The position numbers and the translations under genes were made by a program. A DNA stretch of 64,000 nucleotides from Micromonospora inositola (lineage in GTDB: Bacteria; Actinomycetota; Actinomycetes; Mycobacteriales; Micromonosporaceae): assembly GCF_900090285.1 (NCBI RefSeq), contig NZ_LT607754.1:62001-126000 (forward strand). The letters are read 5' to 3'. Below, in pieces: positions 12,116 through 42,856 of the stretch. Positions within the stretch are counted from its first letter, which is position 1. Each line of letters opens with the position of its first letter. The notes beneath the pieces are model-generated. The model searched no databases. It saw only the letters and a list, made by a program, of their open reading frames with translations, and had not been told where the DNA came from.

Positions 12116-13279
12116 GTGCTGTTCCGGGGCTGGGGGGAGTCCGTCGACCGGCGGTGGCCGGACGTGGCGACCGTGGTCGACCACGTCGGCGTCGGTCACC
12201 TGGTGGTCACCCGGCACGCGCTGGTCCGGCGGGTGCTCACCGACCCCGTCACGTTCCGGCCGGACAACGCCCTCGACGCGGTGACCCCGATGCCGGTGGC
12301 CGCGCTGCGGGTGCTGGCCGGGCACCGGTTCCGGCTGCCGCCGACCCTCGCCAACAACTCCGGCGCCAGCCACCCGGAGATCCGCGGCATCGTCGCCGAC
12401 GCGCTGCACCCCACCCGGGTGGCGGCGCAGCAGCCCTGGCTGACGGCGCTGGTCCGAAAACGGGTGGACCGACTCGCCGCCGCCCTCGACGCGGGCCGGG
12501 TGGTCGACCTGTACGCCGAACTCGCCGCCGACCTGCCGCTGCTGGTGCTGGCCCGGCTCGTGGAACTGCCGGACGCCCCGGTCGGTGCGGTCAAGGAGTT
12601 CGCCCGGGCCGCGCTGGAGCTGTTCTGGGCGCCGCTGGACGCCGAGCGGCAGCGGGCGCTCGCCACCGAGGTCGGCCGGTTCCACACCGTGCTCCGGGCG
12701 TTCGCCGCCACCGGCGGGGGGCTGGCCGCCCGGCTTCGCGCCGCCGGGCACTCCCCCGACGTGGTGGTGGGCGCGCTGTTCTTCCTGCTGGTCGCCGGCC
12801 AGGAGACCACCTCGCAGTTCCTCACCCTGCTGCTGCACCGGCTGACCGGCGAACCGGAGGTACGCGCGGGGCTGCGCGCCGGCGAGGTCGCCGTCGCCGA
12901 CGTGGTCGAGGAGGGGCTGCGGCTGGAGCCGCCGATCGTCACCTGGCGGCGGGTGGCCGCGGTGGACACCACGCTGGGCGGGACGGCGGTGCCGGCGGGC
13001 ACCAGCATCGTGGCGTGGCTGGCCCGGGCGGGCCGGGACCCCGAGGTGGTGGCCGCCCCGGCCGAGTTCCGGCCGGGACAGCCCGGTTCCCGCCGGCACC
13101 TGGCCTTCGGGGCGGGCGCGCACCGCTGTGTGGGGGCCCAACTGGCCCGGATGGAGGCGGCGGTAGTGGTCGCCGAGGCGGCCCCGCTGCTCGACGGGGT
13201 GACCGTGGTCCGGCCGCCGTGGTGCCCGGACAACCTGACCTTCCGGATGCCGGACGCGTTCGTCGTCCGCCGCGCCTGA
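12116..13279 (+). CDS. cytochrome P450
   Basis: A 387-aa soluble bacterial P450. The I-helix oxygen-activation motif is VAGQETTS, the K-helix ExxR is EEGLR, and the haem-binding loop is FGAGAHRCVG with the axial thiolate at about Cys338. The N-terminal part is short but complete for class I bacterial P450s. It needs a ferredoxin and reductase from elsewhere; none is adjacent. No biosynthetic cluster surrounds it, so the substrate is unknown. The GTG start is supported by a TAGCGT at six bases. Confidence 0.92.
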   Translation: MLFRGWGESVDRRWPDVATVVDHVGVGHLVVTRHALVRRVLTDPVTFRPDNALDAVTPMPVAALRVLAGHRFRLPPTLANNSGASHPEIRGIVADALHPTRVAAQQPWLTALVRKRVDRLAAALDAGRVVDLYAELAADLPLLVLARLVELPDAPVGAVKEFARAALELFWAPLDAERQRALATEVGRFHTVLRAFAATGGGLAARLRAAGHSPDVVVGALFFLLVAGQETTSQFLTLLLHRLTGEPEVRAGLRAGEVAVADVVEEGLRLEPPIVTWRRVAAVDTTLGGTAVPAGTSIVAWLARAGRDPEVVAAPAEFRPGQPGSRRHLAFGAGAHRCVGAQLARMEAAVVVAEAAPLLDGVTVVRPPWCPDNLTFRMPDAFVVRRA

Positions 13280-13413
13280 CCGCTCCGGCCCGAGCGGCCG
13301 ACCGGCGGGAACTCCGGCGGCGGCGCGCGAGGTACGGCGTGGGACGGCGGCCCTGACGAAAGTCGGGGTCGGTTGACGGCGATCGGCAGCGGCGGGGTGG
13401 CCGGTCCGGTTCG

Positions 13414-13419
13414 TACCGT
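13414..13419 (+). promoter_or_regulatory. leaderless-type -10 of the chimeric ABC gene
   Basis: TACCGT lies exactly six bases before the ATG at 13426. Confidence 0.5.
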
Positions 13420-13425
13420 CGGCGC

Positions 13426-14211
13426 ATGATCACACTACGTGGGTTGACGAAACGGTTCGGGGGGACGACCGCGGTCGACGACCTGACCGTCGACATCGCG
13501 CCCGGGCGGGTGACCGGCTTCCTCGGCCCGAACGGCGCCGGCAAGTCCACCACCATGCGGATGGTCCTCGGCCTGGACCGACCGACCGCCGGCGAGGCCC
13601 TGGTCGACGGGCGGCCGTACCGGGCGCTGCGACACCCGTTGCACGAGGTGGGGGCGCTGCTGGACGCGACAGGCGTGCACCCGGCCCGGTCCGGCCGGGC
13701 GCACCTGCGGGCCATGGCCCGCAGCAACGGCATCCCGCCGCGCCGGGTCGACGAGGTGCTCGGCCTGGCCGGTCTGGACGGACGCGCCGCGGACAAGCCG
13801 GGACGCTCGCTCTCCCTCGGCATGGCGCAACGGCTCGGCATCGCCGGTGCGCTGCTCGGCGACCCGCCCGTGCTGCTCTTCGACGAACCGGTCAACGGGT
13901 TGGATCCCGACGGGGTGCGCTGGATCCGGCGGTTGACCCGCACGCTGGCCGCCGAGGGGCGGACCGTCCTGGTCTCCAGTCACCTGATGAGCGAGATGCA
14001 GCAGACCGGGCTGCTCGGCAACCAGCTGCTGCGCTCCGCCGTCGACCCGGCGAGCTTCGTGGTGATGAGCGAGTGGACCAGCCTGGCCGCCTTCCAGGAC
14101 TGGGAGGGCGGCGCCACGCACCGGGGCGCCACCGCGCCGCTGCGCCCCTACCAGGACCGGCGCCGGCAGCCGCCGTACGAGATCCTGGAGACCGTGGCGG
14201 CGTACTCCTGA
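13426..14211 (+). CDS. chimera: truncated ABC ATPase fused to C-terminal half of an antibiotic-biosynthesis monooxygenase (ABM) domain
   Basis: Residues 1-193 are an ABC-type ATPase: Walker A GPNGAGKST (35-42 region), a drifted signature LSLGMAQRL (129-137), Walker B VLLFDEPVNGLD (149-160) and the switch His in SSHLMSEMQQ (about 187). The family normally continues 50-110 residues beyond this point and is followed by a permease gene. Instead, from about residue 194 (base about 14005) the frame becomes TGLLGNQLLRS...FVVMSEWTSLAAFQDWE...PYEILETVAAYS, the distal part of an ABM dimeric ferredoxin-like domain lacking its first strands. I infer an in-frame deletion that removed the ATPase end, any permease and the ABM start. 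The upstream -10 and ATG are intact, so the product may be made; activity is doubtful. Confidence 0.8.
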   Translation: MITLRGLTKRFGGTTAVDDLTVDIAPGRVTGFLGPNGAGKSTTMRMVLGLDRPTAGEALVDGRPYRALRHPLHEVGALLDATGVHPARSGRAHLRAMARSNGIPPRRVDEVLGLAGLDGRAADKPGRSLSLGMAQRLGIAGALLGDPPVLLFDEPVNGLDPDGVRWIRRLTRTLAAEGRTVLVSSHLMSEMQQTGLLGNQLLRSAVDPASFVVMSEWTSLAAFQDWEGGATHRGATAPLRPYQDRRRQPPYEILETVAAYS

Positions 14212-14215
14212 AGGG

Positions 14216-14947
14216 TCAGCTGATGTCCTCGGCCCAGGTACGCCAGTCGTCCAGCACCCCGTGCAGCGCGGGGGTGAGCCAGCCGGGCGCGGAGCGGCGG
14301 AAGACCCCCGGGTCCATGCCGCCCGCCCCGTCGGGCAGGGCGCCGAGCAGGTTCGGCACCAGGTCGGTCAGGTTGGTCCAGTGCACCAGCTCCGGGGTGG
14401 CCGGCCAGGCGCCGATCACCACCCCGGCCGGGACGGCCCGACGCTCCAACGCCTCCAGGGTGAGCGCGGTGTGGTTCAGCGTGCCGAGCCCGGCGCGGGC
14501 CACCACCACGGCCGGGGCGCCCAGCGACACCGCCAGGTCGGCCACCGTCCAGGGCTCACCCGAGGGCCGCAGCCCCATCGGTACGAGCAGCCCGCCGGCC
14601 CCCTCGACGAGCACCAGGTCGTGCTTGTCGGCCTCCTCGCGGACCGCGTCGACCGCCGCGTACAGCTCCAGCGGCTCCAGCTCGGCGACCCGGGCGGCAG
14701 CGAGCGGGGCGAGCGGGTCCGGGTAGCTGGCCAGGGTCCGGCCGGTCAGCGGAGCGGCCAGCCGGGTCACCGAGTCGACGTCGCCGGGCTCGCCGGTGGC
14801 GGTACCGGTCTGGCCGGGCTTGATCACGGCCACCCGCAGCCCGGCGGCCTGCGCCGCCGCCGCGATCGCCGCGGTCACCACGGTCTTGCCCACCTCGGTG
14901 TCCGTGCCGGTCACCAGCACCGGCCCGCGCCACGCACCATCCGTCAT
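14216..14947 (-). CDS. bioD: dethiobiotin synthetase
   Basis: A 243-aa ATP-dependent enzyme that closes the ureido ring of 7,8-diaminopelargonate with CO2. The N-terminus VLVTGTDTEVGKTVVTAAIA is the BioD P-loop (GTDTEVGKT). Acidic Mg-binding and substrate blocks include IKPGQTG (with the catalytic Lys) and LVEGAGGLLVPM. The ATG at 14947 overlaps the bioF stop by four bases, so bioF and bioD are translationally coupled. The sequence just before it is a diverged copy of the 59-bp repeat found in the sbc operon. Confidence 0.95.
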   Translation of the reverse strand: MTDGAWRGPVLVTGTDTEVGKTVVTAAIAAAAQAAGLRVAVIKPGQTGTATGEPGDVDSVTRLAAPLTGRTLASYPDPLAPLAAARVAELEPLELYAAVDAVREEADKHDLVLVEGAGGLLVPMGLRPSGEPWTVADLAVSLGAPAVVVARAGLGTLNHTALTLEALERRAVPAGVVIGAWPATPELVHWTNLTDLVPNLLGALPDGAGGMDPGVFRRSAPGWLTPALHGVLDDWRTWAEDIS

Positions 14948-35128: not shown

Positions 35129-35358
35129 GTCCGCTCCCCGCTCCCCCCGGCCCCCTGCAGGATCTCGCGGATGACGCCCGGCCGGGGCGGGAATCGCGTC
35201 GCCGCCGACACGCGGTGTGGTTGGCCGACCCCGGTGCGCGAGGGGCGCGGAGGACCTCGGGTGGCGTCCGCCGCGTCGCGTGGCAACCTGTCGCATCCCT
35301 CGGGCAGGATGCACCACGTGTGCCGCGACCGAGACGACCAGCTGACCGGAGTCCGCCG

Positions 35359-37110
35359 ATGACCGACGACCCGCTCGACGGCCCCGGCGACGGGGTCGGC
35401 CGGGTGCTCGGCACCGCCGACGCCACCCCGCTGACGTTCTGGACCGCCGTCGCCCCCGGCAGCTACCTCCAGCTCGACGACGTGGTGGTCACCCGCCGCG
35501 AGCTGCCCGACCGGGAGCCGGTGACCATCGCCGGCGTGGTCACCCAGGTCCGCGCCCGGCATGAGGGCGCGCAGTTCGACTCCGACGTATTCGCCATCGC
35601 CGACGGGACGCTGCCCGCCCAGGTGCAGGAGGCCGCGGAGATCACCACCACCCGGGTCGACCCCGAGTTCTACGTGCCGCCCACCCCGGGGGCGGTCGTG
35701 CACCGGGCCGAGGGCGACGCCCGGGCCCGGGCTTTGCACTTCGACCGGATGGAACGGCGCATCCCGATGGGCATGGGCCGCGACGGCGTGCCGGTCTACC
35801 TCAACGCCGACTTCCTCGACGGCACCCGCGGCGCGCACGTCTCCATCTCCGGCATCTCCGGGGTGGCCACCAAGACCAGCTTCGCCACCTTCCTGCTCTA
35901 CTCGGTCTTCCGCTCCGGGGTGCTCGGCGGCGACGCGGTCAACGCCAAGGCGCTGATCTTCAACGTCAAGGGCGAGGACCTGCTCTTCCTCGACCACCCC
36001 AACACCCGGCTCGACGACGCCACCCGGGCCGGGTACGCGAAGCTCGGGCTGGACGCCGGCGCCTTCCCCGACGTGCGGGTGTACGCGCCGCCCCGGGTCG
36101 GCGACTCCTCCGGCACGCCGGACGTGAGCAGCCGGCTCACCGGCGTCGACAGCTTCTACTGGACACTCGCCGAGTTCTGCGCCGACCGGCTCCTGCCGTA
36201 CGTCTTCGCCGATGCCGACGACGAGCGCCAGCAGTACACGATGGTGGTCCACTCGGTGGCCGCCCACCTGGCCCGGTACGCCCAGCCCGCCGACGGCGGG
36301 GTCAGCCTGGACGGCGTCCGGCTGGGGTCGTACGCCGACCTGGTCGACCACATCGTCGAGCAGCTCAACGACGACGAGACCCGGTCCGAGTGGGCGGGCA
36401 GCGCGGTCGGGCTCGGCACCGTCAACGCGTTCGCCCGCCGGCTGATCGGCAGCAAGAAGGACCTGGGCCGGCTGCTCCGGGGTGACCTGGCCACCCGCCG
36501 CCCGCACTCGATCAACACCGCCGAGAGCGCCCAGGTCACCGTCGTCGACCTGCACAATCTCCCCGACCGGGCGCAGCGCTTCGTGGTCGGCGTGACGCTG
36601 AAGAGCGAGTTCGAGCGCAAGGAGAAGGCCGGCACGGCCAAGCCGCTGCTCTTCGTCGTCCTCGACGAGCTGAACAAGTACGCCCCCCGCGAGGGCTCCT
36701 CCCCGATCAAGGAGGTGCTGCTGGACATCGCCGAGCGGGGCCGCTCGCTCGGGGTGATCCTGGTCGGCGCCCAGCAGACGGCGAGCGAGGTGGAGCGCCG
36801 GATCGTGACCAACTCGGCGATCCGGGTGGTCGGCCGGCTCGACCCGGCCGAGGCGTCCCGCCCCGAGTACGGCTTCCTCCCGCCGGCCCAGCGGCAGCGG
36901 GCCCTGCTGGCCAAGCCCGGCACCATGTTCGTCAACCAGCCGGACATCCCGGTCCCGCTCTGTTTGGAGTTCCCCTTCCCGGCCTGGGCGACCCGGGTCT
37001 CCGAGGCCGGCCGGGCGCCGTCGGAGACGCTGCGTTCGATCACCCAGTCGGCCGACCCGTTCGCCGTGGTCGGCTCCGGCGCCGCCACCGACGACGACAT
37101 CCCGTTCTGA
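35359..37110 (+). CDS. herA: HerA-type DNA-translocating ATPase
   Basis: A 583-aa HerA/FtsK-superfamily ATPase. An N-terminal HAS-barrel-like beta region (residues about 30-110) is followed by the ATPase: P-loop GISGVATKTSFATFLLYS (about 168-185; the usual GxGKS is altered to VATKTS), Walker B LLFVVLDELNKYAP, the sensor Gln in LVGAQQTASEVE, and arginine-rich NSAIRVVGRLD. In archaea HerA is a hexameric translocase that loads NurA for 5'-strand resection with Mre11-Rad50. It heads an operon with sbcD, sbcC and a NurA-like gene, which fixes the assignment. The ATG at 35359 starts the homology. The family also includes phage-defence HerA proteins. Confidence 0.85.
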   Translation: MTDDPLDGPGDGVGRVLGTADATPLTFWTAVAPGSYLQLDDVVVTRRELPDREPVTIAGVVTQVRARHEGAQFDSDVFAIADGTLPAQVQEAAEITTTRVDPEFYVPPTPGAVVHRAEGDARARALHFDRMERRIPMGMGRDGVPVYLNADFLDGTRGAHVSISGISGVATKTSFATFLLYSVFRSGVLGGDAVNAKALIFNVKGEDLLFLDHPNTRLDDATRAGYAKLGLDAGAFPDVRVYAPPRVGDSSGTPDVSSRLTGVDSFYWTLAEFCADRLLPYVFADADDERQQYTMVVHSVAAHLARYAQPADGGVSLDGVRLGSYADLVDHIVEQLNDDETRSEWAGSAVGLGTVNAFARRLIGSKKDLGRLLRGDLATRRPHSINTAESAQVTVVDLHNLPDRAQRFVVGVTLKSEFERKEKAGTAKPLLFVVLDELNKYAPREGSSPIKEVLLDIAERGRSLGVILVGAQQTASEVERRIVTNSAIRVVGRLDPAEASRPEYGFLPPAQRQRALLAKPGTMFVNQPDIPVPLCLEFPFPAWATRVSEAGRAPSETLRSITQSADPFAVVGSGAATDDDIPF

Positions 37111-37122
37111 GGCGGTCCACCG

Positions 37123-37181
37123 GTGAGCGCGAGGAGTGCAGCGAAGCGGAGCCCCGCAGTCGCGAACGAAAGGCCAGCACT
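37123..37181 (+). repeat. 59-bp junction repeat, single copy before sbcD
   Basis: Begins GTGAGCGCGAGGAGTGCAGC and ends just before the sbcD GTG at 37182. It differs from the sbcC-nurA copies at a few bases (GAAGCG for GCAGCG, GGCCAGCACT at the end). It provides a GAAAGG ribosome-binding site about seven bases before the GTG. Confidence 0.9.
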
Positions 37182-38330
37182 GTGAAGATCCTGCACACCT
37201 CCGACTGGCACGTCGGCAAGGTCCTCAAGGGACGGTCCCGGGCCGAGGAGCACAAGCAGGTGCTGGCCCAGGTGATCGAGATCGCCCGGGCCGAGCGCCC
37301 CGACCTGGTCATCGTGGCCGGCGACCTGTACGACACCGCCGCGCCCACCCCGGAGGCGACCCGGCTGGTGACCCGGGCGCTGACCGCGCTGAGGCGCACC
37401 GGCGCGGACGTGGTGGCGATCGGCGGCAACCACGACAACGGGCAGGCCCTGGACGCGCTGCGCCCCTGGGCCGAGGCGGCCGGCATCACCCTGCGCGGCG
37501 GCGTCCGGGACAATCCGGCCGAGCACATCATCGACGGCGTCACCGCCGACGGGGAGCGCTGGCAGCTCGCCGCGCTGCCCTTCCTCTCCCAGCGGTACGC
37601 CGTCCGCGCGGTGGAGATGTACGAGCTGACCGCCGCCGAGGCCAACCAGACGTACGCCGACCACCTCGGCCGGGTGCTCGCCCGGCTCACCGAGGGCTTC
37701 ACCGAGCCCGACCGGGTGCACCTGGTCACCGCCCACCTGACCGTGGTCGGGGCGAGCACCGGCGGCGGCGAGCGGGACGCGCACACCGTCCTCGGGTACG
37801 CCGTGCCAGCCACCGTCTTCCCGGGCACCGCGCACTACGTGGCGCTCGGTCACCTGCACCGCTCCCAGCGGGTCATCGGCCCCTGCCCGGTGCGCTACAG
37901 CGGCAGCCCGCTGGCGGTCGACTTCGGCGAGCAGGAGAACGTCGGCTCGGTGACCATCGTCGAGGTGACCGCCCGGACCGCCGCCCGGATCCGGGAGGTG
38001 CCGGTGCCGGGGGCGACCCCGCTGCGCACCGTGCGGGGCACCCTGGCCCAGCTCGCGGAGATCGAGGCGCCGGAGGGCTGGCTGCGGGTCTACGTCCGCG
38101 AGCAGCCCCGCGCCGGGCTGCGCGAGGAGGTGCAGGAGCTGCTTCCCGGCGCGCTGGAGATCCGGATCGACCCGGAGCTGGTCCCGGCGCCCGGCAGCGG
38201 CACCCGCACCGCCCAGCGGGCCGGCCGGTCGCCGCGCGAGCTCTTCGCCGACTACCTGGGCAGCCGCGGGCACGCCGACGAGGGCGTCCAGGAGCTCTTC
38301 GACGAGCTCCTCGAGGAGGTCGACCGCTGA
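37182..38330 (+). CDS. sbcD: SbcD/Mre11 nuclease subunit
   Basis: A 382-aa calcineurin-like phosphoesterase with all Mre11 motifs: HTSDWHVGK, VVAGDLYDTAAP, GGNHDNGQ, LVTAHLTVVG and ALGHLHRSQ (two-metal site). It is the nuclease of the SbcCD/Mre11-Rad50 complex, which trims hairpins and protein-blocked DNA ends. The GTG start is set by the end of the preceding 59-bp repeat and its GAAAGG. Its stop overlaps the sbcC ATG (TGATG), as in a tightly coupled pair. Confidence 0.95.
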   Translation: MKILHTSDWHVGKVLKGRSRAEEHKQVLAQVIEIARAERPDLVIVAGDLYDTAAPTPEATRLVTRALTALRRTGADVVAIGGNHDNGQALDALRPWAEAAGITLRGGVRDNPAEHIIDGVTADGERWQLAALPFLSQRYAVRAVEMYELTAAEANQTYADHLGRVLARLTEGFTEPDRVHLVTAHLTVVGASTGGGERDAHTVLGYAVPATVFPGTAHYVALGHLHRSQRVIGPCPVRYSGSPLAVDFGEQENVGSVTIVEVTARTAARIREVPVPGATPLRTVRGTLAQLAEIEAPEGWLRVYVREQPRAGLREEVQELLPGALEIRIDPELVPAPGSGTRTAQRAGRSPRELFADYLGSRGHADEGVQELFDELLEEVDR

Positions 38331-40804
38331 TGCGCCCGATCCGGCTGGACATGGCGGGCTTCACCGTCTTCCGCGAGGAGACCACCGTCGACTTCACCGA
38401 CGCCGACTTCTTCGTGCTGGTCGGGCCGACCGGCTCCGGCAAGTCCACGGTGCTCGACGCGATCTGCTTCGCCCTCTACGGCACCGTGCCGCGGTGGGGC
38501 GGGACCCGGGGCCTGGCCAACGCGCTCGCCCCGTCGGCCACCGAGGCCCGGGTCCGGCTGGTCTTCGAGTCCGCCGGCGACCGGTACGTCGCCACCCGGG
38601 TGGTCCGCCGGGACGGCCGGGGCGCGGTCAAGACCGCCAACGCCGGGTTGCAGCTCATGCCCGCCGGCTTCGACGTGACCAAGCTCGACACCGGGCTCAG
38701 CCCGGACGACCTCGGCGAGGTGGTCGCCGGCACCCCCGCCGAGATGGAGGACGCGGTCCTCGAGGCGGTCGGGCTGCCGTACGAGCAGTTCACCTCCTGC
38801 GTGGTGCTGCCGCAGGGGCAGTTCGCCGACTTCCTGCACGCCAAGCCCGCCACCCGGCAGCAGATCCTGGTCAACCTGCTCGGCCTCGGCGTCTACGAGG
38901 AGGTGCAGAAGAAGGCCACCGAACGCGCCGGGCAGGCCGAGGCGAAGCTGGAGGCCGTGGACCGGATGCTCGCCGGGCTCGCCGCCGTCGACGACGAGAC
39001 GGTGGCCGGGGCGCAGGCGCAGGTCGACCGGATGCGGGAGCTGGCCGGGGCGGTGGCGACGGCCGTACCGGAGCTGGAGGGGGCGCGGGCCACGGCGCGG
39101 GAGGTGGCGGCGGCGCTCGCCGCGCTCGACGCGGAGCTGGCCGTGCTGGCCGGGGTGCGGGCGCCGGACGGGATCGCCGAGCTGGCCCGGGCGGTGACCA
39201 CGGCGCGGGCCGCGGCCGACGAGGAGGTCGCCGCGGTGGCGCTCGCCGAGGAGCGGGAGGAGAAGCTGCGCGGCGAGCTGACCGCGGCCGGCGACGAGAG
39301 CGCGCTGCGCCTGCTGCTGAAGGCGCACGCCGACCGGGACCGGCTGACCGCCGAGGCGGACACGGTCCGGGCGGCGGTGAACGCGGCGCAGGCCGAACAC
39401 GACGCGGCGGCGCGGGCCCTGGCCGAGGCACGGGCCGCGGCCGAGCGGGCGGACGCGGAGCTGGAGGCGGCGTTCCGGGCGCACGAGGAGGCCAAGGCCA
39501 CCGACCAGGCCGTGGCGCTGCGAGCGCACCTGGTCGACGGCGGGCCCTGCCCGGTCTGCGAGCAGGTGGTGCCCCGGGTGCCGGCGGTGCCGGCCGGTTC
39601 GGCGGTGGCCCGGGCCACCGCCGCGGGGAAGGCGGCCCGGGCCGCCAGCGAGGCGGCGAAGCGGCCGGTGCAGGAGCACGACGCGGCCGCCCGCGACCTG
39701 GACCGGATGCTGCTGCGCGCCCACGCCGAGCACGACCAGCTGCGGGCCCGGCTGGTCGAGCTGGACGACCAGCTCGCCGCCGCCGCCGCGCCGGCCGCGC
39801 TGCGGGCGGCCTTGGACGAGCACGCCCGGCTGCGCCGGGCACTGGAGGAGGCGGCGACCGCGGTGCGCGCCGGACGGGACGCCGCCCGGCGGGCCCGGGG
39901 CGCGCTGGACGGCGCCGAGGAGCGGCTGCGCCGGGCGTGGCGCGACTTCGACACAGCCCGGGACCGGCTCGCCCGGTTCGGGCCGCCGGCCGCCGACCGC
40001 GACGACGTGGCCGCCGCGTGGGCCGCCCTGGCCGGGTGGGCCGGCGGGGAGGCCGACCGGCGGCGGGCCGACCGCGGCGGACTGGTCGACTCGGTCGCCG
40101 CGGCCCGGGCGGCGGCGGCCGAGGTGGAGGACCGCATCGCCGCCCTCTTCACCGCCGCCGGCCTGGCCGTCGCCGACGACCCGGACCGGGCCGCCGCGGT
40201 GGCGGTGGAGCGCGCCGAGGCCGAGCTGCGCCGGCTGGTCGAGCGGCGCGAGCAGGCCGTCGAGCTGCGCGAGCAGCGGGCCGGCCACGAGCGGGAGGCC
40301 CGGGTCGCCCGGGCCCTGGCCGGGCACCTGCGGGCCAACAACTTCGAGCGCTGGCTGCTGGCCGAGGCGTTGGACCTGCTGGTCGACGGCGCGTCGCGGA
40401 TCCTGCGGGAACTCTCCGGCGGCCAGTACGACCTGGTGCACGACAAGGGCGAGTTCTTCGTGGTCGACCACCACGACGCCGGGCTGCGGCGGGGTGTGCG
40501 CACCCTCTCCGGCGGGGAGACGTTCCAGGCCTCGCTCGCGCTGGCGCTGGCGCTGTCCGAGCAGCTGGCCGGGATGTCGACCACCGCGGCCAGCCTGGAG
40601 TCGATCGTCCTCGACGAGGGCTTCGGCACGCTGGACGCGGCCACCCTGGACACCGTCGCGGCGACCCTGGAGAGCCTGGCCGCCCGCGGCGACCGGATGG
40701 TCGGCGTGGTCACCCATGTGCCGGCCCTCGCGGAGCGGATCCCGGTCCGCTACGAGGTCCGCAAGGACGCCCGCACGGCCCGCGTCGAACGGACCGGCCT
40801 GTGA
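38330..40804 (+). CDS. sbcC: SbcC/Rad50 SMC-type ATPase
   Basis: An 824-aa ABC-type ATPase with a split head. The N-terminal Walker A is GPTGSGKSTVLDAICFALYG. Two long Ala/Arg/Glu-rich coiled coils flank the zinc hook CPVC (GGPCPVCEQVVP, about residues 404-407). The C-terminal lobe has signature LSGGETFQASLAL and Walker B LESIVLDEGFGTLD. It is partner of SbcD. It is a little shorter than E. coli SbcC, as usual for actinobacteria. The stop TGA is embedded in the GTGA that opens the first of four 59-bp repeats; without them the same GTGA would be the nurA start. Confidence 0.95.
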   Translation: MRPIRLDMAGFTVFREETTVDFTDADFFVLVGPTGSGKSTVLDAICFALYGTVPRWGGTRGLANALAPSATEARVRLVFESAGDRYVATRVVRRDGRGAVKTANAGLQLMPAGFDVTKLDTGLSPDDLGEVVAGTPAEMEDAVLEAVGLPYEQFTSCVVLPQGQFADFLHAKPATRQQILVNLLGLGVYEEVQKKATERAGQAEAKLEAVDRMLAGLAAVDDETVAGAQAQVDRMRELAGAVATAVPELEGARATAREVAAALAALDAELAVLAGVRAPDGIAELARAVTTARAAADEEVAAVALAEEREEKLRGELTAAGDESALRLLLKAHADRDRLTAEADTVRAAVNAAQAEHDAAARALAEARAAAERADAELEAAFRAHEEAKATDQAVALRAHLVDGGPCPVCEQVVPRVPAVPAGSAVARATAAGKAARAASEAAKRPVQEHDAAARDLDRMLLRAHAEHDQLRARLVELDDQLAAAAAPAALRAALDEHARLRRALEEAATAVRAGRDAARRARGALDGAEERLRRAWRDFDTARDRLARFGPPAADRDDVAAAWAALAGWAGGEADRRRADRGGLVDSVAAARAAAAEVEDRIAALFTAAGLAVADDPDRAAAVAVERAEAELRRLVERREQAVELREQRAGHEREARVARALAGHLRANNFERWLLAEALDLLVDGASRILRELSGGQYDLVHDKGEFFVVDHHDAGLRRGVRTLSGGETFQASLALALALSEQLAGMSTTAASLESIVLDEGFGTLDAATLDTVAATLESLAARGDRMVGVVTHVPALAERIPVRYEVRKDARTARVERTGL

Positions 40805-41036
40805 GCGCGAGGAGTGCAGCGCAGCGGAGCCCCGCAGTCGCGAACGAAAGGGCGGCCCTGTGAGCGCGAGGAGTGCAGCGCAGCGGAGCCCCGCAGTCGC
40901 GAACGAAAGGGCGGCCCTGTGAGCGCGAGGAGTGCAGCGCAGCGGAGCCCCGCAGTCGCGAACGAAAGGGCGGCCCTGTGAGCGCGAGGAGTGCAGCGCA
41001 GCGGAGCCCCGCAGTCGCGAACGAAAGGGCGGCGCT
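40801..41036 (+). repeat. four tandem 59-bp repeats between sbcC and nurA
   Basis: Units start with GTGAGCGCGAGG at 40801, 40860, 40919 and 40978 (exact period 59). Units 1-3 are identical; unit 4 has one change near its end (GGCGCTG for GGCCCTG). Each ends with GAAAGG then about seven bases before the next GTG, so each carries a ribosome-binding site and a start codon. 59 is not a multiple of three, so successive units are in different frames. Confidence 0.97.
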
Positions 41037-41999
41037 GTGAGCGAGGCCCGGTTCTTCGTCGACGCCTGGGACCCGGCGTACGGTGCCTCGTTCGAGGCGT
41101 CGGCCGGCGGCCCGGCGGCGCCGAGCAGCGCGCAGGTCGACCCGGACGTGGAGCTGCCGGCGACGGACTGGCGGGCGATCGGGGCCCGCCGGGACCTGCC
41201 CGCCCCGGACGTGGTGCTGCTCGTCGACGGGGTACGCCGGATCGACGCCAGCGTCTGGACGGCCGAGGACGACGGCGGGTCGTTCCCCGGCATCGCCGCC
41301 TCGTACGCGGCCGGGGTGGTCCGCTGCGACCTGGAGCGCGGCGCGGCGGAGCTGGCCGGCGCCCGCGTCGGCCGGGGCCTCTTCACCGCCAGCCCGTCCG
41401 CCCAGGACGTGGTGGCCGGCCGGATCCACTACCCGGTGCACCGGGTCGGCGGCACCGGTGAGCTGAGCAAGCTCCCGGCGGCGGTGCAGGGCCCGCTGAC
41501 CGCGCTGGAGGTGGCGGTCTCCGACGCCGCCCGGGTCGACGGTGACCTGCTGGTGGTGGACGGTCCGCTGCGCAGCCGCCGGCAGCTGCCGCGCACGCTG
41601 GGCTACATCAAGACCCAGCACAGCCAGTACCTGGACGCCCGGCTGACCGCGGTGGTGACCGGGCTGGCCCCGGGCCAGCGCTCCCCGGTGTTCCGGCTCG
41701 GCACCGCCTGGGGCGGCTACTCGTGGTACCTGCGGCTGCCGGTGGCGGCCGGCGCGCCCTGGGCCGGCATCGTGCGGATGGAGTGCTCCGCCGAGCTGAC
41801 CGAGGCGGAGGCGATCGGCCTGGCCGACCTCTCCCTGGTCACCCTGCCCCGGTTCGCCTCCACCCCGTACAAGGACCCGCGCGCGCCGCAGAACCTCGTC
41901 CCCATCGCCGGATTGGAGCGCCGGCTGCGCGGGCTGCTGGGCGACGCCCGCCTGCTGCACCGGGTGCTGATCGCGGCGGCCCGCGGGATCCCGCGCTGA
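41037..41999 (+). CDS. nurA: NurA-like nuclease
   Basis: A 320-aa protein with the NurA RNase-H-like core. VVLLVDGVRRIDA (Asp64) is motif I, LLVVDGPLRSR is the second acidic motif, and TLGYIKTQHSQYLDA the basic/GYIK motif; SWYLRLP and the C-terminal VECS-like MECSAELTEAEA complete the pattern. In archaea NurA is the 5'-3' nuclease driven by HerA. Operon position after herA-sbcD-sbcC supports the call strongly; sequence alone is moderate. The GTG start follows the fourth repeat. Its stop overlaps the next gene's ATG by one base (TGATG). Confidence 0.78.
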   Translation: MSEARFFVDAWDPAYGASFEASAGGPAAPSSAQVDPDVELPATDWRAIGARRDLPAPDVVLLVDGVRRIDASVWTAEDDGGSFPGIAASYAAGVVRCDLERGAAELAGARVGRGLFTASPSAQDVVAGRIHYPVHRVGGTGELSKLPAAVQGPLTALEVAVSDAARVDGDLLVVDGPLRSRRQLPRTLGYIKTQHSQYLDARLTAVVTGLAPGQRSPVFRLGTAWGGYSWYLRLPVAAGAPWAGIVRMECSAELTEAEAIGLADLSLVTLPRFASTPYKDPRAPQNLVPIAGLERRLRGLLGDARLLHRVLIAAARGIPR

Positions 42000-42856
42000 T
42001 GGGCCGCCGACGCGACGCCGACCGGGTGGTCGAGCAGGTCGACACCGGGCAGGCCGAGCTGCTGCCGGATCCGGACCGGCCGGGCTCGTGGACGTTGCTC
42101 CTCGACGGCGCGCCGCAGTCGCATGTGGACCTCACCGACCCGACCCACCTGGAGTTCGAGTACGTCCGGCGGCTGGCCGCCGCGCTGGACCTGATCGCCC
42201 CGCCCGGCAACCCGCTGCGGGTGCTGCACCTCGGCGGCGGCGCGCTGACCCTGCCCCGGTACGTCACCGCGACCCGGCCCGGCTCGACCCAGCGGGTGTC
42301 CGAAGTGGACGGCGCCCTGGTCGAACTGGTCCGGCGGGCGCTGCCCTGGCCCACCGATCCCCGGCTCCGGGTCCGGGTGGCCGACGCCCGGGCCACCCTG
42401 ACCGCCAGCCGGGACGCCAGCTACGACGTGGTGGTCGCGGACGTCTTCGCCGGCGCCCGCACCCCGGCCCACCTGACCTCGGTGGAGTACGCCGGCGAGG
42501 TGGCCCGGGTGCTTCGGCCGGACGGCTGGTACCTGGCCAACATCGCCGACGGCCCGCCGCTGCGGCACGCCCGGGCCCAGGTCGCCACGGTCCGCTCGGT
42601 GCTGCCCCGGGCCTGCCTGGTCGGCGACGCGGCGGTGTTGCGCGGGCGGCGCTACGGCAACCTGGTGCTGGTGGCCGGCCGGGTCGAGCCGCCTGTGCCG
42701 GAGCTGACCCGGCGGGCCGCCGGCGACTGGTTCCCCGGCCGGGTGCTGGCCGGCGAGGACCTGGACCGGTTCGCCGGCGGCGCCGGCGTGGTGCGCGACG
42801 CGGACGCCACCGCCTCCACCCCACCACCGCCCGGAATTTTTTCCGTGCGCCGTTGA
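41999..42856 (+). CDS. spermidine synthase-like SAM-dependent protein
   Basis: A 285-aa Rossmann protein. LRVLHLGGGALTLPRYVTATRPGS is the nucleotide loop of the spermidine synthase family, RVSEVDGALVELVRRAL the acidic strand end and YDVVVADVFAGARTPAHLTSVEYAGEVARVL the active-site block. The polyamine-site Asp-Ala pair is changed, so it may be a methyltransferase or orphan. The ATG overlaps the nurA stop. This co-transcription with the resection operon may be incidental or meaningful; no known role links the two. Confidence 0.85.
   Translation: MGRRRDADRVVEQVDTGQAELLPDPDRPGSWTLLLDGAPQSHVDLTDPTHLEFEYVRRLAAALDLIAPPGNPLRVLHLGGGALTLPRYVTATRPGSTQRVSEVDGALVELVRRALPWPTDPRLRVRVADARATLTASRDASYDVVVADVFAGARTPAHLTSVEYAGEVARVLRPDGWYLANIADGPPLRHARAQVATVRSVLPRACLVGDAAVLRGRRYGNLVLVAGRVEPPVPELTRRAAGDWFPGRVLAGEDLDRFAGGAGVVRDADATASTPPPPGIFSVRR

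Follow-up and report, generated by a model that had tools for sequence, protein, structure and literature searches.

A bacterial-type HerA–NurA pair encoded with SbcCD in one operon of Micromonospora inositola

The proposal that the archaeal four-gene set of HerA, Mre11, Rad50 and NurA forms a resection machine is now disputed in print, a direct part in resection having been considered unlikely for the Thermococcus kodakarensis complex (PMC12977600). The role of bacterial HerA–NurA has been called controversial, and bacterial NurA is described as dimerizing in a form of its own and as carrying a pin motif (PMC9960219). One account gives Deinococcus radiodurans as devoid of Mre11–Rad50 (PMC12977600), and the available sections of another leave open any connection of sbcCD with HerA–NurA in this organism (PMC4663267). 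In Oceanithermus profundus, hepA (herA) is reported with sbcD and sbcC, a set that its authors liken to the archaeal one; the available text does not state outright that nurA is present (PMC5448004). This report was the one literature source we found that places a bacterial HerA beside SbcCD, and an earlier mention is possible. Because the arrangement is already in print, the locus described here is not the first of its kind. A literature search for 'NurA' with 'Micromonospora' returned nothing.

We analysed a window of 64,000 nucleotides from the soil actinobacterium Micromonospora inositola (NZ_LT607754.1), in whose coordinates all positions are given. It holds four real genes in one cluster on the + strand: herA (35359..37110; a predicted bacterial-type HerA hexameric double-stranded DNA translocase of 583 residues), sbcD (37182..38330; Mre11 homologue, 382 residues, GTG start), sbcC (38327..40804; Rad50 homologue, 825 residues) and nurA (41037..41999; a predicted bacterial-type nuclease of 320 residues with an RNase-H-like core). 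These identities and the linkage, proposed in a preliminary description, are borne out by sequence, fold and synteny; to call the genes mostly overlapping was too strong. The sbcD and sbcC genes overlap by 4 nt, and nurA shares a TGATG overlap with a gene of spermidine-synthase/methyltransferase fold (41999..42856, + strand, 285 residues). A family of 59-bp repeats is located at start/stop overlaps. One copy (37123..37185, + strand) is a mini-ORF of 20 codons (GTG...TGA), and its stop shares 4 nt with the GTG start of sbcD. A tandem array of four copies (40798..41043, + strand) runs from the end of sbcC to the start of nurA, so that GTGA overlaps link the sbcC stop through the four mini-ORFs to the nurA start.

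Upstream of herA stands a conserved element, TCGCGTGGCAACCTGTCGNANNNCTCGGGCAGGATG (35276..35311, + strand), which is probably the operon promoter or operator. In this locus, as in many others of Micromonospora, its GTGGC begins 79 nt ahead of the herA start; the element appears in an alignment of 17 upstream regions, in which one locus (L093) is without it, and has a single match in its own genome when up to 3 mismatches are allowed. With up to 6 substitutions, it is found at 30 of the 77 loci having upstream sequence, one of them (L117) a weak match at 6 substitutions, and it is absent at this threshold from Actinoplanes and most other genera among the 77. LexA and RecA-NDp-like motifs had no match between 34800 and 43200.

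The closest relative of HerA in the PDB by sequence is D. radiodurans HerA (phmmer E 3.4e-149; 54% identity over 534 aligned residues), and the best Foldseek matches of the HerA model are structures of the same protein (7WRW/7WRX, TM 0.83–0.85). D. radiodurans NurA is the best PDB relative of NurA (phmmer E 1e-18) and the best Foldseek match of its model, whereas the archaeal HerA and NurA structures show 12–14% identity. Judged by sequence and modelled fold, HerA and NurA are of the bacterial type whose structures were determined from D. radiodurans and not, as had been supposed, to the archaeal type. Of eight D. radiodurans HerA residues examined by alignment, seven are kept: K175, T176, D220, D487, E488, R495 and R552 correspond to K172, T173, D207, D436, E437, R444 and R501. 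By analogy, these would be Walker A (K172/T173), D207, Walker B (D436/E437) and DNA-contacting arginines (R444 and R501). The exception, R96, is Glu94 here, and an R96A mutant of the D. radiodurans protein is without defect (PMC9960219). Each residue so mapped is either invariant or conserved at 90% or more across 28 HerA homologues, with G165, G168, A170, T171, K172, T173, D436 and E437 identical in all 28. In a single-sequence NCBIfam scan, HerA models reached 14–15 bits, under cut-off and below T7SS EccC, and the HAS-barrel Pfam model matched 3 of the 28 members at E ≤1 (best 0.002).

For NurA, all three residues examined are kept (D53, K201 and R309 of the D. radiodurans protein align with D64, K192 and R282), and D64, E158, D175, K192 and R282 are invariant in 43 aligned homologues. 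The expected RNase-H-like core is present in the model with its catalytic Asp and Lys/Arg residues, and both Asp64 and the acidic residue of VDGPL, Asp175, are among these invariant positions. The NurA family of Pfam (PF09376) scores 12.0 bits against a curated cut-off of 21, and a search of the whole genome found no member; at E ≤1, the same model matches 29 of the 43 homologues, with a best value of 2.4e-6. We take the low score as probable insensitivity of the model and no biological feature. The alignments excluded NurA rows containing stop codons (L033, L035), NurA pieces (L039 and the like) and one HerA row (L086).

SbcD exceeds the cut-offs for Metallophos (50.8 bits), SbcD_C (29.6) and TIGR00619 (178.9 over 77.65), and SbcC those for AAA_23 (67.7) and SbcC_Walker_B (43.5), while its TIGR00618 score of 260.7 falls under 478.5. 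SbcD carries what we take to be the phosphoesterase motifs (DWH 8–10, GD 47–48, GNHD 82–85, H185, GHLH 223–226). In SbcC, both ABC ATPase halves and the zinc hook are present, presumably marked by the P-loop GPTGSGKS (33–40), CPVC (408–411) and LSGGE (727–731). In a tree computed after removal of two duplicate rows (L063, L066), a split with support 100/100 divides all 36 SbcD labelled as linked from 15 of the 19 stand-alone SbcD; one linked label (L190) was given to a 5.3-kb contig that shows sbcD and sbcC only. We rejected the idea that linked SbcD form one exclusive clade, because L188, L191, L205 and L206 fall on the linked side, and neither HerA nor NurA was found in the two genomes holding L205 and L206 (G143 and G039). 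The label changes 4 times on the careful tree, with at least 3 changes forced by starred branches, against 16.0 for shuffled labels; a quick tree gave 3. The length of the SbcC coil has a median of 680 in linked (n=28) and 887 in stand-alone proteins (n=13), 1 of 29 and 6 of 19 having been dropped for a missing motif, and was rejected as a strict mark of linkage since the ranges overlap (658–980 and 665–1001).

To survey the phylum, we sampled 198 Actinomycetota genomes, including that of M. inositola; 181 are of good quality, and genus and family were for part of them inferred from named relatives. A close NurA occurs in 45, and every one of these also has a close HerA, on the same contig and strand in 43; SbcD lies on the contig of NurA in 42 of the 45. 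Counted from gene distances, nurA adjoins herA in 30 of the 43 same-contig genomes, and in the other 13 it lies 3.5–18 kb away, beyond sbcDC. An SbcD match occurs in 88 genomes of the sample, and 44 of these carry a close HerA on the same contig, so that the earlier statement that SbcCD is usually not linked to HerA or NurA fails in Actinomycetota. Named loci show all four genes in the order herA-sbcD-sbcC-nurA in 67 of 80 cases (at L094, nurA is cut by the contig end), and 11 further loci end within 0–58 nt of the sbcC match. Within the family of M. inositola, NurA is core (147/150 genomes, 133/134 good ones). Too much weight had been placed on the spermidine-synthase-like neighbour: this gene lies within 1 kb 3' of nurA in 25 of the 67 four-gene loci, two of which end at nurA or 0.5 kb after it, and is a local, lineage-specific addition outside the conserved set. 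Another family, f16, holds 17 genomes with a distant HerA, left out of the close-HerA count of 46; 16 have a diverged NurA, found only by profile, on the same contig within ~1 kb, and none of the 17 has an SbcD match at E 1e-8. Nucleases of PF12705 have four matches in the M. inositola genome, which are therefore other candidates for end resection. Since this superfamily occurs in 189/198 genomes, and among the 45 close-NurA genomes is present in 44, G162 being the exception, we rejected HerA–NurA as a replacement for RecBCD-class nucleases, a rough test given the breadth of PF12705.

We observe the identities of the genes, the retention of catalytic residues, the modelled folds, and the conserved linkage and co-occurrence of the genes. 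The likeliest role of the proteins appears to be ATP-driven DNA-end processing. With a probability of about 0.58, we propose that the operon encodes a bacterial-type HerA–NurA helicase-nuclease together with SbcCD, working as follows. SbcCD would bind a DNA end and open hairpins or remove ends that are blocked or bound by protein. The cleaned duplex end would then be threaded by a 6:2 assembly of the D. radiodurans kind, a HerA hexamer with a NurA dimer, HerA using ATP to pump double-stranded DNA and NurA cutting the strands as they split; following the D. radiodurans precedent, cutting would fall mainly on the 5' strand and leave a 3' tail for RecA. We infer that there is a physical complex, that cutting has this polarity, that HerA–NurA cooperates with SbcCD and that the role is housekeeping repair alongside RecBCD-class nucleases; the four proteins may form one resection machine. 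Against this reading, loss of both nurA and herA raises the resistance of D. radiodurans to far-UV and mitomycin C about 10-fold (PMC9960219); the f16 pairs devoid of an SbcD match, the linked-side SbcD of L205 and L206, the PF12705 matches and the published judgement on the T. kodakarensis complex also weigh against it.

Could the motor be dead, with NurA acting without translocation? The HerA P-loop, described earlier as altered (VATKTS), does depart from what we take to be the usual GxxGxGK[ST] pattern. GVATKTS is nevertheless the normal loop of the Deinococcus type and stands likewise in D. radiodurans HerA; together with the invariance of P-loop and Walker B residues in 28/28 homologues, this makes a dead motor highly improbable. 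In the D. radiodurans protein, ATPase activity with Mg is poor, but K175 and T176 contact the ADP beta-phosphate and Mg, and K175 and D487/E488 mutants are impaired in ATPase and resection (PMC9960219).

We consider it unlikely that the operon merely co-expresses two independent modules, SbcCD for hairpins and blocked ends and HerA–NurA for something else, such as removing DNA at division or aiding its uptake. The f16 pairs would fit such independence, as would Thermus, in which HerA–NurA is reported beside unrelated genes and HepA mutants of T. thermophilus show defects both in competence and in donating DNA (PMC5448004); yet the four genes remain clustered in two different orders and across deep divergence, and in several relatives an xTGA overlap apparently connects sbcC with nurA. 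We are equally doubtful that the cluster mainly destroys foreign or linear double-stranded DNA in an antiviral or restriction-like manner, HerA pumping DNA into NurA, which would cut both strands, and SbcCD making or cleaning ends. DNA destruction was argued for the T. kodakarensis complex in a report that also cites antiviral pairs of HerA with Sir2 and DUF4297 (PMC12977600), and the HerA structures of those systems rank next in our fold search after the D. radiodurans and archaeal ones, from rank 10 down at 11–16% identity. In PADLOC searches of the five operon proteins, three matched mads models (SbcC with mad3, 94.2 bits; HerA with mad8, 32.9; the spermidine-synthase-like protein with mad2, 31.7), which we read as a probable general likeness of ATPases and methyltransferases. 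PADLOC HerA models gave HerA 23.5 bits at most, and at E 0.001 NurA had no match and none of the five matched a partner of Sir2-HerA or HerA-DUF4297. Patchiness, as seen in defence genes, is also unlike the near-universal presence of NurA in its family.

The distribution bears on whether bacterial HerA–NurA arose as two genes or as a block of four. Tentatively, HerA–NurA and an SbcCD lineage of its own may make up a single, ancient DNA-end machine of bacteria, passed down as a block across Actinomycetota and resembling the set in Oceanithermus; the Thermus/Deinococcus pair would then be a remnant after loss of SbcCD, rather than SbcCD a late recruit. Many relatives keep the parts side by side, which gives an easy test of whether bacteria use them as a single machine. 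Because the four genes form one operon in Micromonospora and NurA is core in the family, the connection between SbcCD and HerA–NurA could be tested there.

Among known systems, the defence ATPase-nuclease pairs TdpAB, Sir2-HerA and HerA-DUF4297 match far more weakly and have other partners. The archaeal herA-mre11-rad50-nurA operon (Sulfolobus, Pyrococcus, Thermococcus) likewise has four co-directional genes in one cluster, but its HerA and NurA are of another type, as the 12–14% identities indicate. The O. profundus set, compared by its description, shares a bacterial herA with sbcD and sbcC downstream; it was reported from a single species of Thermales, where SbcCD was taken to be a local recruit (PMC5448004), whereas the set here is found repeatedly across Actinomycetota and belongs to the core of one family. 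Thermotoga maritima TM1739 (1ZUP) is a bacterial NurA among the closest known systems. D. radiodurans HerA–NurA (7F6D, 7WRW, 7WRX) is alike in sequence family, P-loop, Walker B, fold, translocation arginines and NurA catalytic residues; the available text on that pair describes no SbcCD linkage (PMC4663267, PMC12977600), whereas in M. inositola sbcCD lies inside the operon.

The operon runs on the forward strand as herA (35359-37110, 583 aa), sbcD (37182-38330, GTG start, 382 aa), sbcC (38327-40804, 825 aa), nurA (41037-41999, GTG start, 320 aa) and a spermidine-synthase-like gene (41999-42856, 285 aa). The sbcD and sbcC genes overlap by 4 nt, nurA and the spermidine-synthase-like gene by 1 nt (TGATG), and gaps of 71 nt and 232 nt lie between herA and sbcD and between sbcC and nurA, respectively. 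The source genome is a single contig of 6.7 Mb, and the nearest named relatives of the operon among the matches listed are Micromonospora. A 36-bp element at 35276-35311 (about -79 before herA), conserved in Micromonospora and single-copy in its own genome, is probably the operon promoter; it is absent from loci L093, L119 and L121, and the other genera tested gave one weak match only. Among the matches listed, the spermidine-synthase-like gene follows nurA at a distance of up to 1 kb in 25 of the 67 named four-gene loci, and is reversed and elsewhere in two Asanoa loci (L128 and L144). Two Micromonospora loci carry ~1.56 kb extra between sbcD and sbcC (L088, ~12908-14467; L101, ~12944-14504).

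Judged by domain content, SbcD and SbcC are ordinary members of their families: Metallophos, SbcD_C, AAA_23 and SbcC_Walker_B all score above cut-offs, and SbcC scores below that of TIGR00618. SbcC carries a P-loop, the CPVC hook and an LSGGE motif. For HerA, the preliminary description had regarded the VATKTS P-loop as altered and the activity as in need of checking. The same GVATKTS occupies the equal position in Deinococcus radiodurans HerA (drHerA). In that protein, K175 contacts the ADP beta-phosphate and T176 contacts Mg, K175 and D487/E488 mutants are impaired in ATPase and resection, and R96A is without defect (PMC9960219). Seven of eight mapped drHerA residues and three of three from D. 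radiodurans NurA are identical here, the eighth, R96, being Glu94. Loop residues G165, G168, A170, T171, K172 and T173, together with D436/E437, are invariant in 28/28 HerA.

Linkage of the four genes was borne out in relatives. The best matches listed gave 80 named loci, whose record titles all point to Micromonosporaceae or Glycomycetaceae, and the order herA-sbcD-sbcC-nurA is found in 67; 11 of the 80 stop 0-58 nt from the sbcC match, one sequence (L117) stops directly after herA, and in a metagenome bin (L164) sbcD was not found in 6.1 kb downstream. In an even sample of 198 Actinomycetota genomes, close NurA occurs in 45 and close HerA in 46, with both present in 45/45 NurA genomes; the 46th HerA genome (G070) has a contig with herA and sbcD, and NurA was not found there, profile search included. 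Within this sample, NurA and HerA share one contig and strand in 43/45, SbcD and NurA a contig in 42/45, and SbcD and HerA a contig in 44/46. All 20 stretches (12-20 kb each) hand-picked in genomes that have the HerA-NurA pair match all four genes, counting one whose cut clips nurA (L175), one with herA in four pieces in different frames (L170) and one with sbcC in two frames (L183). The genes stand in one of two orders: herA-sbcD-sbcC-nurA, in some cases interrupted by other genes, or nurA-herA-sbcD-sbcC. One genome, G146, has besides its ordinary cluster a second, diverged nurA-herA-sbcD group (C15:13683-16809; HerA 30% identity, NurA E 7.5e-6, SbcD E 8.3e-21).

NurA is present in 147/150 genomes of the window's family (133/134 good ones) and in 19/296 genomes of the class, some in pieces or with stops; a repeat search with a profile found it in 0/16 same-order or same-class genomes. 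In another family, f16, 17 genomes have a distant HerA, which in 16 shares its contig with a diverged NurA, and an SbcD match at E 1e-8 was found in 0/17. At f16 loci L229-L245 the diverged nurA adjoins the distant herA without a match to the operon SbcD, and HerA-NurA can therefore do without the operon SbcCD.

Both operon gaps are filled by a 59-bp repeat, with one copy before sbcD (37123-37185) and four in tandem before nurA (40798-41043). The unit here is a 20-codon ORF (VSARSAAxRSPAVANERxAL) that ends in TGA and carries a ribosome-binding-like AAAGG ahead of the next start; the last unit runs into sbcD or nurA with a 4-nt stop/start overlap. Units of arrays with a 60-bp period fuse into one longer ORF. 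The arrays compared number 29 and come from the window and 25 further loci (L101, L102, L110, L112, L113 and L209-L228); among them, the last stop overlaps the long-ORF start by exactly 4 nt in 24 and the first start overlaps the upstream long-ORF stop in 22, counts that are indicative only because the loci were hand-picked, junctions are repeated and long spurious ORFs are frequent at this G+C. The 20 repeat stretches were chosen by hand from the matches listed and own-genome matches, and several of them repeat the sbcC-nurA or herA-sbcD junction from further species; as a loose control, 144 of their 498 [AGT]TGA open at least 150 codons. In repeat-free relatives (L092, L093, L122, L123, L135 and L147), sbcC and nurA are apparently joined by an xTGA overlap, with start codons read by eye. 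The repeat core, with up to 2 mismatches, occurs in at least 55/61 Micromonospora genomes. From these sequences, the repeat looks like a mobile, coupling-preserving insert at start/stop overlaps that in most cases leaves a 4-nt overlap on either side; a limited literature search found no published description of the family.

In a careful tree of 55 SbcD, a 100/100 branch divides 15 stand-alone SbcD from the 36 labelled linked, all of which fall on its other side together with four unlinked SbcD (L188, L191, L205 and L206). SbcC spacing from P-loop to LSGGE has a median of 680 in linked versus 887 in stand-alone proteins, with overlapping ranges. Apart from the operon SbcD, the M. inositola genome gives a single SbcD match at E 1e-8, L188 (C1:6664000-6681000), which is part of a second SbcCD pair. 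Its neighbours include a JetA-like protein (PADLOC E 4.1e-139) along with a DUF4194 protein and an AAA_11/AAA_12 helicase, and mark it as a Wadjet-side SbcCD; the locus also has a PD-(D/E)XK match below cut-off. Because the sole other SbcD match is thus Wadjet-side, the operon SbcCD is likely the general SbcCD of M. inositola.

Reports on related systems bear on the function. In D. radiodurans, HerA-NurA pumps dsDNA and removes the 5' tail as it translocates, so that a 3' tail remains, and yet the double knockout shows ~10-fold higher resistance to both far-UV and mitomycin C (PMC9960219). Thermococcus kodakarensis HerA-NurA was judged an unlikely direct actor in resection (PMC12977600), and mutants of Thermus thermophilus HepA (HerA) are sensitive to UV and heat and poorly competent (PMC5448004). 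On this basis, we put the probability that the operon proteins would act together in DNA-end resection at about 0.58. That HerA-NurA and SbcCD instead destroy DNA seems improbable, and we hold it no likelier that the operon merely co-expresses separate modules. If resection is indeed the role, HerA-NurA is not its sole candidate, since the genome has four PF12705 matches.

In the literature covered, which is incomplete, the breadth of the operon in Actinomycetota, its core status and its SbcD lineage were not found in print. The component proteins and the archaeal operon are already known, and in some databases orthologues already bear the name 'NurA domain-containing' or, for HerA, 'DNA helicase HerA-like ATPase'. 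Among bacteria, Oceanithermus profundus has sbcD and sbcC downstream of herA, with nurA beside them not stated outright in the part of the source available (PMC5448004).
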